34,630 bases of DNA from Gloeobacterales cyanobacterium ES-bin-313 (GTDB taxonomy: Bacteria; Cyanobacteriota; Cyanobacteriia; Gloeobacterales; Gloeobacteraceae), in the NCBI GenBank assembly GCA_014379585.1, contig JACMLN010000047.1, forward strand, positions 1 through 34,630. The letters are read 5' to 3'. Positions 471 through 30,476 of this stretch are shown in pieces. The translations under genes and the position numbers were made by a program. The notes below the pieces were generated by a model. It saw nothing but the letters and a program-made list of their open reading frames with translations, was not told the DNA's origin and searched no databases. Numbering within the stretch: the first letter of the stretch is position 1; each line of letters opens with the position of its first letter.

Positions 471-490
471 ATTTTGGCTTCCATAGCGGC

Positions 491-570
491 TTGGCACTCG
501 GAATTACATTGGGCGCTACGCGTGGTGATGCGGAATTGGAGGGGGATCGGGAGAGGTTTGGGTGCCAATG
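491..570 (+). repeat. Dispersed repeat, copy 1 (3' domain only)
   Basis: These 80 bases align with the last 80 bases of the repeats at 21799-21988 and 30288-30476, sharing the core TTGGGCGCTACGCGTGGTG and the closing GCCAATG. The 5' part with two GC-rich hairpins is absent. As in the other copies, the domain is bounded by the inverted pair CATTGG (507-512) and CCAATG (565-570). Homology fades upstream of 491, although GAA-TTTT at 472-477 may be a relic of the GAACTTTT that precedes this domain elsewhere. Confidence 0.75.
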
Positions 571-1806: not shown

Positions 1807-1937
1807 GGGCTTACTCCTGAGAGAGGCTATTGTGCTGTTCGGCAGTACTTGCACACAATAGCATCCTAGCGTTTCATGCGCAGTTTGATGGGTATCCGCA
1901 GCATGGTTTGCCCCTACATACTTCGTGATTGAATCGC

Positions 1938-3173
1938 TCAATTTAAAGGCGAAACGGTGCTGATCAATGGCAATCCCTGAGTAGCTGTAAACCCTGGCAA
2001 GACTTTACGGATTCGGGCATTATCGAGTTGAAGGTGTTGGTCTAGGACAGTTGAAATCACATCGCGGAAGTCAGTAGTGACCATGAGATCGCGGCCTTCG
2101 TAGAGTTGGCCACTGCTCAGACCAGGCCATTGCCCGTAAACTTTGCCGCCTTTCACACTGCCACCCGCTAACCAGATGACGTTGCCGTGGCCATGATCGG
2201 TACCACCGTTACCGTTTTCGCGGACAGTGCGCCCAAATTCGGAGAGCACGACGATAGCCGTGTCGTTATAGATCGGGCCGAGGGTTTGGGCGAGGGTGGC
2301 GATGCCTTGGCCGAGTTGGCGCAGACGATTGTTCAGTTGTCCTGCTTCATTGACGTGGGTATCCCAGCCACCGACGGCGATGAAACCAAGTTGAACATTG
2401 GTATCGCGCACCATCAATTTCGCAAGGCGTTGGGCATCCCCAGCAAATCCGTTCACCGAAAGGGCACCATTGTTGGCTGCTTTCATCTCGGCATCGGGGG
2501 ATTTGAGATCATCCATGATCGTCTTGCGGGCACTGCGTCCTTCTTGATAGGTCTTGGAAAGGGCATCGTTACCACCGTAAAGACTGTCAAAAGCAGAAGC
2601 GACTTGGGGTCGATCTAGGGCAGAGAAATTCACGGAACCACGACCTGTGGCGAGGCTGGCCACAGAGCGAGGACCAGACAGAATACGCGGCATCGTCGCG
2701 CCGACGTTGATTGCCTGCACCGGATTGGCTCCGCCCAAATTGCCAAGCAAGCGGTTCATCCAACCATCGGGGGTCGATTTGATGCCGGGAGTGCCGCTTT
2801 CCATAAAGTCTTGGGCATCGAAGTGGGAACGGGTGACATCGGGAGAACCAGCGCCGTGAACGAAGGCGAGACTGCCTTGTTTCCATAATGGAAGAATCGC
2901 TGCGAGGCCAGGGTTCAGACCAAAGTGACCGTCGAGGTCTAGAGCACCGTTGGCTTGATCGGGGCGGGGTACGGCGATGCGTGGGCGACTTTGGTAGTAG
3001 GCGGATTCGCCGTAGGGAACAACAATATTCAGACCATCGACGGCTCCCCGCAAAAAGATCACGATCAGACGCTTACGGTTGGTGGTGGTTGAAGCAGCTT
3101 GCACTTGTCCTGCCCAAGCATTGGAGCCGAGGGCGAGAATGGCGCTAAACGCCAAAAATTCACGTCTGTCCAT
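1938..3173 (-). CDS. DUF1501 domain protein, exported
   Basis: The protein has 411 residues. The N-terminus MDRREFLAFSAILALGSNAWA has a Tat-like twin-arginine signal. Typical DUF1501 blocks follow: KRLIVIFLRGAVDGLNIVVP, a DFMESGTPG segment, GGWDTHVNE and VVLSEFGRTVRENGNGGTDHGHG. This family belongs to the alkaline phosphatase/sulfatase-like superfamily, and the Asp/His-rich TDHGHG near the C-terminus is a probable metal-binding segment. It almost always sits next to DUF1800, as here, with only 12 bases between the genes. The biochemical role of the pair is not established; export to the periplasm is inferred from the leader. Confidence 0.9.
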   Translation of the reverse strand: MDRREFLAFSAILALGSNAWAGQVQAASTTTNRKRLIVIFLRGAVDGLNIVVPYGESAYYQSRPRIAVPRPDQANGALDLDGHFGLNPGLAAILPLWKQGSLAFVHGAGSPDVTRSHFDAQDFMESGTPGIKSTPDGWMNRLLGNLGGANPVQAINVGATMPRILSGPRSVASLATGRGSVNFSALDRPQVASAFDSLYGGNDALSKTYQEGRSARKTIMDDLKSPDAEMKAANNGALSVNGFAGDAQRLAKLMVRDTNVQLGFIAVGGWDTHVNEAGQLNNRLRQLGQGIATLAQTLGPIYNDTAIVVLSEFGRTVRENGNGGTDHGHGNVIWLAGGSVKGGKVYGQWPGLSSGQLYEGRDLMVTTDFRDVISTVLDQHLQLDNARIRKVLPGFTATQGLPLISTVSPLN

Positions 3174-8353: not shown

Positions 8354-9514
8354 CTATAGGGAATCGAGTTCAGCGCGACGTACAGCAAACAGTCGATCAC
8401 TCACAGTCTGCCATCCGAAGACAGTCAGCGTGCCGTCTTGGCTAGCAACGAAAGCGAGGGCGCGTTTGTGAACACAACAGAATTCTGCTGCTGATCGGTG
8501 TCTCGCTCCACCTAGTTTGGAGAGCGGAACGGAACGGATTTCAAGTTTGTCACCAGCATTCTCTGTGTAACGACCAAGCTCTAGCACTGCAGCGCTGCGC
8601 TGGGTGAGGCGATCCTCAGACTTGAGCATCACACCGAAGGCCAACACTTCGAGTCCTTCGGAGAGCACCATCGCCCCATCCACCGCAGTCAACTGGGCAA
8701 TCCCATCCAGCGTGGGCTTGATCTCCTGCATGTAGAGATTCAATTGTTCGTAAAGAGGGCTATTGCGGTGGTCTTCGCGGCCAAAACTGGTTTCGGTAAG
8801 CGGCTCGGTGGTGAGTTTGTCGATGTACTCGGCCAATTCTCGGTAGGGAGGCTTGCATAGGTAGCGAATGCTCTTGACACTTGATTGCCAATCCACACCC
8901 TCCGGTATCCAGAGCAGGGTTCCACCGTGAGCCTGTTGCACCATCGTGTCGATGATCTTCTTCAATGCCTCCGCCAGAAGTGCCAGGCTCATGGTCACCT
9001 CCCATTCCTGTTCAGACAGCGTAATCAAGATGAGGATTAAGTTGTCGGAATGGTCGTTGCGAAGAATCGTCGTCTCCCCAGAGCGCAGCACCATCCGGTT
9101 TCGGCCTAAGAATCGCACAGCAATGTGTCCTGGCCCAACCGCCTCCACCGTTAAGCCAGGGTTCGGCAAAGGCAACATTCCCCAGATCTCTAGCTCTTCA
9201 CGGGCATCCGCTTGTACGCCGATGGCACGTCGTCCCGGCAAGAGGGCAGGGAAGAGCTTGACAATATTCGGCACATTGAGATCTTGGAGTTCCTCGAAGA
9301 TGAGGGGCTGAGACATTTTGCTGGCATTCGGTGGCGAGAAGCACAGTGCAAAAATGCTCGGTCGCCCTTCTTCCTTCTCCAGACTGGCCCAGAAAGCCCG
9401 ACTGACAAGTTCTTGGAGTTGGGTTTCGCTAGGTAGCAACACATCCTCTTCCGCAATCAGTATGCGCAGACTGGAGTGGAGTTTGCGGGCATCCGCCTTG
9501 CTAAGAACTTGCAC
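8354..9514 (-). CDS. DAC (diadenylate cyclase) domain protein
   Basis: The protein has 386 residues. The C-terminal third carries the two hallmark motifs of the DAC nucleotidyltransferase fold: VDGAMV with Asp279-Gly-Ala and GGARHRSAA with Arg338-His-Arg340, around 60 residues apart as in DisA and CdaA. These residues hold ATP and metal when two DAC domains face each other to make cyclic di-AMP. The N-terminal 270 residues have no membrane segment and are not DisA's DNA-binding part; the layout resembles DAC proteins with predicted sensor modules (DACNV-type). Activity is inferred. It is convergent with the antitoxin gene and stands alone. Confidence 0.72.
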   Translation of the reverse strand: MQVLSKADARKLHSSLRILIAEEDVLLPSETQLQELVSRAFWASLEKEEGRPSIFALCFSPPNASKMSQPLIFEELQDLNVPNIVKLFPALLPGRRAIGVQADAREELEIWGMLPLPNPGLTVEAVGPGHIAVRFLGRNRMVLRSGETTILRNDHSDNLILILITLSEQEWEVTMSLALLAEALKKIIDTMVQQAHGGTLLWIPEGVDWQSSVKSIRYLCKPPYRELAEYIDKLTTEPLTETSFGREDHRNSPLYEQLNLYMQEIKPTLDGIAQLTAVDGAMVLSEGLEVLAFGVMLKSEDRLTQRSAAVLELGRYTENAGDKLEIRSVPLSKLGGARHRSAAEFCCVHKRALAFVASQDGTLTVFGWQTVSDRLFAVRRAELDSL

Positions 9515-21758: not shown

Positions 21759-21798
21759 GGTTGGGATAAAAAGAGTGAGATTTACTACTTTTTGAAGA

Positions 21799-21988
21799 GA
21801 TGGCGAACGGCATTAGGGGGCAGGGGCAAGCCCCGCCCCCTAAAACCCCCGCCCCGTGGTGGACGGACGCACCCGTCCCCCACACCCCCTCGGCGAACTT
21901 TTACGGATTGATACTTGGAATTGCATTGGGCGCTACGCGTGGTGGTGCGGAGTTGGAGACAGATTGGGAGAGGTTTGGGTGCCAATGG
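21799..21988 (+). repeat. Dispersed structured repeat, copy 2 (full length)
   Basis: This copy is about 190 bases long. It begins with ATGGCGAACGG and ends with GCCAATGG. Hairpin 1 (21813-21843) has arms TTAGGGGGC-A-GGGGC and GCCCC-GCCCCCTAA with one bulged A and an AA apex. Hairpin 2 (21856-21883) has arms GTGGTGGACGG and CCGTCCCCCAC, ten of eleven paired. GGCGAAC recurs at 21802-21808 and 21892-21898, bracketing both hairpins. The 3' domain is bounded by CATTGG and CCAATG. It lies upstream of chrA, in the same orientation as the other copies. Confidence 0.85.
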
Positions 21989-22036
21989 TAAGTCATCTAT
22001 GTCTGGCCAATGGGTGGTATTTCGTGTTTTGTGTAG

Positions 22037-22056
22037 GGGCGCGGCACGCTGCGCCC
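22037..22056. repeat. GC-rich hairpin upstream of chrA
   Basis: GGGCGC (22037-22042) and GCGCCC (22051-22056) are inverted copies around GGCACGCT. Outside them, CAATGG (22008-22013) and CCATTG (22059-22064) are also inverted. The arrangement resembles the short palindromic repeats common in cyanobacterial intergenic DNA. No second copy was noticed in this window. Confidence 0.5.
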
Positions 22057-22130
22057 ATCCATTGCAAAAACAGAGATAGTCTAAGTAGTAATTTCCGTGG
22101 CAGATATTCTTGTAAGTACGGTGAAAACCT

Positions 22131-30239: not shown

Positions 30240-30287
30240 ATGCAAGAAGTGTCACGAGTTTTAATGCTACTTGGCTACGGAAAGAAA

Positions 30288-30476
30288 TATGGCGAACGGC
30301 ACCAAAGGGAAGGGGCAAGCCCCTCCCTCTGGACTCCCACCCCGTGGGGGACGGACGCGCCCGTCCCCCACACCCCCTTGGCGAACTTTTACGCTTGATA
30401 CTTGGATTTACATTGGGCGCTACGCGTGGTGGAGCGGAATTGGAGACGGATCGGGAGAGGTTTGCGTTACCAATGG
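30288..30476 (+). repeat. Dispersed structured repeat, copy 3 (full length)
   Basis: This copy is about 189 bases, same orientation as copy 2. Hairpin 1 (30302-30332) has arms CCAAAGGGA-A-GGGGC and GCCCC-TCCCTCTGG with one A/C mismatch, the same bulged A and the same AA apex. Hairpin 2 (30344-30371) has perfect 11-bp arms GTGGGGGACGG and CCGTCCCCCAC. TGGCGAAC occurs at the 5' end and again around 30379-30386, bracketing the hairpins. The 3' domain is bounded by CATTGG and CCAATG. It lies between the ACT operon and convergent lptB. Confidence 0.85.

Follow-up and report, generated by a model that had tools for sequence, protein, structure and literature searches.

A dispersed MITE-like repeat of a Gloeobacterales cyanobacterium with tandem hairpins and covarying mirror strands that may fold as a DNA triplex

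The window, i.e. the whole 34,630-nucleotide stretch of DNA analysed here, is one contig (JACMLN010000047.1) of the 4.26 Mb, 198-contig genome of Gloeobacterales cyanobacterium ES-bin-313. It contains two A-B copies, one B module and one left-end (TL) fragment of the same dispersed element. The original prediction, made from the letters of the window, had described two "full" copies and a third. All three are real, and copies 2 (21799-21988) and 3 (30288-30476) were located in the sequence at exactly these positions; however, both are truncated pieces of a larger element, and 487-570 represents only the 3' part of such a copy. The TL fragment had escaped notice. The features are:

487..570, plus strand: copy 1, B module only
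1874..1959, minus strand: left-end (TL) fragment of the same element, without core
21798..21918, plus strand: core A of copy 2 (evidence includes the covariance-model search)
21813..21843, plus strand: hairpin 1 of copy 2 (C arm 21831-21840, CCCCGCCCCC)
21846..21855, plus strand: mirror third strand of hairpin 1, copy 2 (CCCCCGCCCC)
21856..21883, plus strand: hairpin 2 of copy 2, with one mismatch
21885..21890, plus strand: mirror third strand of hairpin 2, copy 2 (CCCCCT)
21904..21988, plus strand: B module of copy 2
30287..30405, plus strand: core A of copy 3, two hairpins with a mirror C-run after each (covariance-model match, E 1.6e-30)
30302..30332, plus strand: hairpin 1 of copy 3 (C arm 30320-30329, CCCCTCCCTC)
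30334..30343, plus strand: mirror third strand of hairpin 1, copy 3 (CTCCCACCCC)
30344..30371, plus strand: hairpin 2 of copy 3 (from sequence and pair counts)
30373..30378, plus strand: mirror third strand of hairpin 2, copy 3 (CCCCCT)
30391..30476, plus strand: B module of copy 3

Elsewhere in the window, positions 8354-9514 of the minus strand are predicted to encode a protein that has a DACNV sensor domain and gives a weak nucleotide-binding match of the DisA type.

A comparison of hairpin 1 between copies 2 and 3 reproduced, letter for letter, all four paired changes that had been proposed. It also revealed one broken pair in copy 3 (A30305.C30329, against G21816-C21840 in copy 2) that had been overlooked. 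Hairpin 2 is paired in both copies, as claimed, but copy 2 carries one mismatch (T21860 against C).

The three copies in the window had been taken to suggest a large genomic family, and this is borne out: a BLAST search of the full genome returned at least 46 matches (40 of 137 candidates scored), while a covariance model built on 59 copies found 106 matches in the 4.26 Mb. Several contigs stop inside the repeat. BLAST against 38 relatives gave no match in any of them, no part of the window matched Rfam at gathering score, one long-form copy gave only chance-level Rfam matches, and a literature search for the exact CCCCCAAACCCCC-type sequence found none. A phage origin was considered and discarded, the 17 viral-contig matches to a 16-mer being at chance level with no element found by profile. 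A plasmid origin was likewise set aside, the four weak plasmid matches being confined to the GC-rich core.

The full element spans 362-478 nt in the 10 complete copies, each of which carries imperfect terminal inverted repeats of the form TAATACCGNTTCGTC at both ends, with up to 3 differences. The module order is TL - A - (a 110-nt insert in some) - B - TR, with 94 instances in the ~1.0 Mb examined, and some copies have an alternative right end with a GTAGGGGC...GCGCCC palindrome. No clear target-site duplication was seen in the flanks of complete copies, and a search with 15-nt end matches found no transposase with matching ends beside terminal repeat matches outside the full copies. The repeat is probably non-autonomous and mobile. 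The 110-nt insert between A and B, present in about one third of instances (e.g. L036:15334-15808 and L063:18781-19119), is GC-rich and looks structured (GGTGCGCAACCACC...GGTGG); contigs often stop beside it, hence insert copies may be near-identical. Palindromes of the type GTAGGGGCGC...GCGCCC, resembling GTAG-tagged REPs, adjoin the repeats at 22029-22059 of the window and in the TL module of many copies. The genome also encodes two Y1 transposase genes, Y1 being the class of the RAYT enzymes by which REPs are mobilised.

Covariation was assessed by counting pairs, with slid and shuffled controls, and by mapping changes on trees, in place of R-scape. Loss of hairpin pairing among the genome copies would have counted against the original prediction, and it was not seen. 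Standard pairs occupy 95.1% of pair cells in 59 distinct copies, compared to 41-66% with partners slid by 1-3 columns, and two-sided changes from the same copies number 90 cells, compared to 0-27 for slid and 31 ± 7 for shuffled partners. For 7 of the 24 pairs tested, both sides vary at population level with pairing retained: alignment columns 24-38, 23-39, 20-42, 17-45 and 16-46 in hairpin 1, and 62-90 and 71-80 in hairpin 2. Two of these occur in three Watson-Crick types (24-38 as C-G, A-T and T-A; 62-90 as G-C, T-A and C-G). Double changes on the trees amount to roughly 20 (conservative tree, all columns) or 56 (tree without stem columns), counts that are approximate given block recombination among copies.

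Paired changes do keep the pairing, as the original prediction had it, but its step from there to an RNA or single-stranded DNA function needs more: hairpin covariation by itself is weak proof, since it can also arise when copies recombine with one another or when templates are switched at a palindrome. Its claim that the repeat encodes no protein agrees with the B module, where substitutions are spread evenly over codon positions (179/211/188). Although 31 of 40 copies have one B frame open, a coding B module was rejected on that even spread.

Stronger evidence than hairpin covariation comes from the sequence after each hairpin. A unit has three strands, of which its hairpin supplies no more than two, and the "spacer" is a mirror image of the C arm that covaries with the hairpin, a feature missing from the earlier description. 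In both window copies, the C-run after each hairpin mirrors that hairpin's own C arm. For hairpin 1, CCCCGCCCCC is followed by CCCCCGCCCC in copy 2, and CCCCTCCCTC by CTCCCACCCC in copy 3; for hairpin 2, the CCCCCT run mirrors TCCCCC, its final T being invariant in 59 copies. Mirror columns 42/50 read TT in 31 copies and CC in 27, columns 39/53 read CC or AT, and columns 38/54 show five combinations, among them GG, TA, TT and AG. The match is not perfect throughout: the central triad of hairpin 1 is non-canonical (C opposite C-G) in 26 of 59 copies, and one class of 7 copies carries CCCCTACCCC in both places, so that its centre is a direct repeat and not a mirror. A hairpin scan of an own-genome sample found 20 asymmetric purine-arm hairpins with a perfect 6-nt mirror and none with a direct copy. 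Mirror runs followed none of 24 hairpins outside the family and none of 16 in shuffled sequence.

The same design (hairpin, C-run, hairpin, C-run) was found by weak covariance-model matches in 8 other genomes of a 291-genome class sample, and also in the same-order genomes G004 and G008. A stricter pattern matched 10 genomes besides the own, with 0 matches for the reversed control pattern. We selected A-T-containing hairpins without any third-strand condition and then read the sequence that follows. The GGAGG hairpins of G137 precede CCTCC or TCTCC, with T at the mirror position in all ten cases (nine plus L301); its GGGGA hairpins precede CCCCT at all six loci examined, and its GGGGG hairpins precede CCCCC. 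Within single elements of G014, a GGAGG unit has CCTCC (5/5) next to a GGGGG unit with CCCCC, and G032 has CCTCC at a site where the related G046 and G059 have CCCCC. GGGGA is accompanied by CCCCA in G074, G084 and G095 (4/4). Not all lineages conform: mixed genomes have CCCCT after GGGGA in 3 of 7 (G296) or 1 of 2 (G265) cases, and G199 follows neither pattern. The palindromes L433-L438, unrelated to the family, have no following C-run. As GGAGG is symmetric, it leaves mirror and direct order indistinguishable; the informative cases are the copy 3 class and the GGGGA hairpins, which show mirror and not direct order, the latter being the weaker evidence in that matched run length may account for part of them. 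Mirror covariation is thus seen in several genera. The lineages behind these counts are few (approximately six to nine), copies within one genome are related, and unbiased hairpin scans of other genomes yielded few informative hairpins outside the family. Further downstream, several relatives share a block resembling CGCTTCGCAT(CGG), which can be compared with GCGCTACGCG of the B module and suggests common descent of those that have it. In other genera, a block like GCGCTTCGCATCGGTGGG lies ~40 nt past the second hairpin (L292, L312, L298, L321, L414) and is possibly homologous to B.

Copies lie mostly downstream of genes. Gene calls were crude and ORF-based, and the contigs sampled were already known to carry a copy. 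Among 32 copies, the flanking genes are convergent for 16, co-directional for 15 and divergent for 1, compared to 22/47/31% of intergenic bases, respectively. Among the co-directional copies, 11 of 15 have the element minus strand on the gene-sense side, as read from the individual rows. REPs and many MITEs show the same gene-3'-side pattern. We propose that the repeat could act at gene ends or as a mobilisation structure.

We favour, at a probability of about 0.55, a MITE-like mobile repeat whose core consists of two tandem triplex-type hairpins, with selection keeping the base triads and the G-rich minus strand as the putative DNA fold. Each unit comprises a G/C hairpin and then a C-run mirroring its own C arm. 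When the strand becomes single-stranded, for example as lagging-strand template, the mirror run could fold back on the hairpin as third strand, giving on the minus strand a purine-motif (reverse-Hoogsteen) intrastrand triplex in the order G2-G1-C1. Selection on the triads would then make pair and third strand change together, and the fold might serve mobilisation of the repeat, or mark gene ends by polymerase block or 3'-end protection. We lean towards DNA rather than RNA as the folded molecule, because the third base opposite A-T pairs is A or T on the minus strand, both of which are canonical in the DNA purine motif. On the plus strand, by contrast, a triplex of RNA or of the pyrimidine motif would tolerate just one of these two bases. 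We infer triplex formation in the cell, DNA as the folded molecule and the role of the fold from sequence. Two points that speak against the triplex reading are the bulge in the stem of hairpin 1 and the little information that a stem of just five G-C pairs can carry.

Plain RNA or REP-like hairpins in 3' untranslated regions, acting as RNA stabilisers or processing sites with the C-runs as unpaired linkers, would fit the covarying stems, the avoidance of divergent promoters in favour of gene 3' ends, and the minus strand of two full elements folding better than shuffles (z -3.5 and -4.0). We nevertheless regard such hairpins as fairly unlikely: they leave unexplained both the mirror third strand and the CCCCC to CCTCC change that accompanies the hairpin, and the asymmetry between G-U and A-C (0 versus 36 in hairpin 1, 14 versus 6 in hairpin 2) indicates no single strand. 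Alternatively, a functionless MITE might have its palindromes kept complementary by template switching or recombination between copies. The very few one-sided intermediates on the tree at covarying pairs fit such one-step events, and the few main haplotypes of hairpin 1 fit block exchange. Palindrome correction should, however, remove the bulged base of the hairpin 1 stem, which is retained. Furthermore, template switching gives inverted repeats and gene conversion direct repeats, and neither produces the mirror order of copy 3 (CCCCTCCCTC / CTCCCACCCC) or of G137 (TCCCC / CCCCT), which makes this account improbable. To our knowledge, no DNA copying process makes mirror repeats, hence selection on base triads would be the likeliest and simplest cause.

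A G-quadruplex (or i-motif) element, suggested by the minus-strand runs GGGG-N-GGGGG-TTTTA-GGGGG-N-GGGG, is in keeping with the strong conservation of G-runs among own-genome copies. It needs neither a complementary arm nor a matching change, and in G137, G014 and G032 the third strand still follows although an A interrupts the G-runs (GGAGG); we therefore consider it very improbable.

The cellular relevance of triple-helical DNA has long been debated, for the most part on the basis of how abundant such sequences are and of in vitro experiments, and a third strand that changes with its hairpin offers an evolutionary test of triplex DNA in cells. A bolder claim would be that triad covariation shows an intrastrand DNA triple helix to be selected in living bacteria, as one two-unit module that dispersed repeats have spread through several families of the class and re-tuned on the way. 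We hold this claim tentatively and at less than even confidence. The GGGGG, GGAGG and GGGGA classes, with matching or mismatching third strands, constitute ready-made natural constructs. The family further offers a possible role for a class of gene-end repeats; cyanobacteria are without Rho, and for many of their transcripts the mode of termination has yet to be settled (PMC13289151).

Intrastrand triplex motifs, including TM-ECO, were described by Holder et al. 2015 (PMC4666352), who reported Microcystis, Anabaena and Nostoc to be rich in G/C triplex motifs and TM-ECO to have no link with mobile elements; neither covariation nor compensatory change turned up as an argument in a word search of their text. 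The repeat resembles these motifs in having three consecutive blocks, a G/C hairpin plus mirror third strand, and in being intergenic and multicopy, and its block order is that of their type-1 intrastrand triplex on the minus strand. It differs from TM-ECO in order (G1-C1-C2, or G2-G1-C1 on the minus strand, versus C-G-G), in its two tandem units, in the bulge of hairpin 1 and in lying within a larger repeat with inverted ends. A TM-ECO-like C-G-G triplex motif, CCCTCTCC...GGGAGAGGGCTAGGGAGAGGG, does occur in G014 (L449-L458), outside the repeat family. The three blocks sought by ITxF (third strand, purine stem, pyrimidine stem) are present on the minus strand of both window copies and of the 59 copies. 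ITxF also asks for an antiparallel third strand with GG, AA or TA triads and at most one mismatch, which is what is seen here: hairpin 2 has 6/6 canonical triads in most copies, while the third-strand/purine-arm positions of hairpin 1 are canonical at 10/10 in copy 3 and include one C.C in copy 2. Against the ITxF requirement for loops of 1-6 nt and ungapped stems, hairpin 1 has fitting loops but a bulged Watson-Crick stem, and in hairpin 2 the stem blocks lie ~12 nt apart, separated by the loop and three more pairs.

Like MITEs, the repeat is short, multicopy and geneless, with imperfect terminal inverted repeats and truncated copies; unlike them, it has no partner transposase or clear target-site duplication that we could find, and its hairpin core is unusually elaborate. 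With REP/GTAG-tagged palindromes (Di Nocera et al. 2013, PMC3733652) it shares a palindromic, extragenic nature and a gene-3'-side preference, as well as the REP-like block GTAGGGGC...GCGCCC, which is found within the TL module and also forms part of the right end in some copies. Its core A of 120 nt is nevertheless larger than the 20-40 bp of a REP, no GTAG/CGTC tag lies beside the hairpins, and a mirror third strand is not part of any description of REPs known to us. Strict membership is incomplete for the triplex motif, because of the bulge and loop length, and for MITEs, because neither transposase nor target duplication was found. By its sequence, the motif would be an intrastrand triplex motif, doubled and set in a MITE-like repeat, in which both pairs and triads covary.
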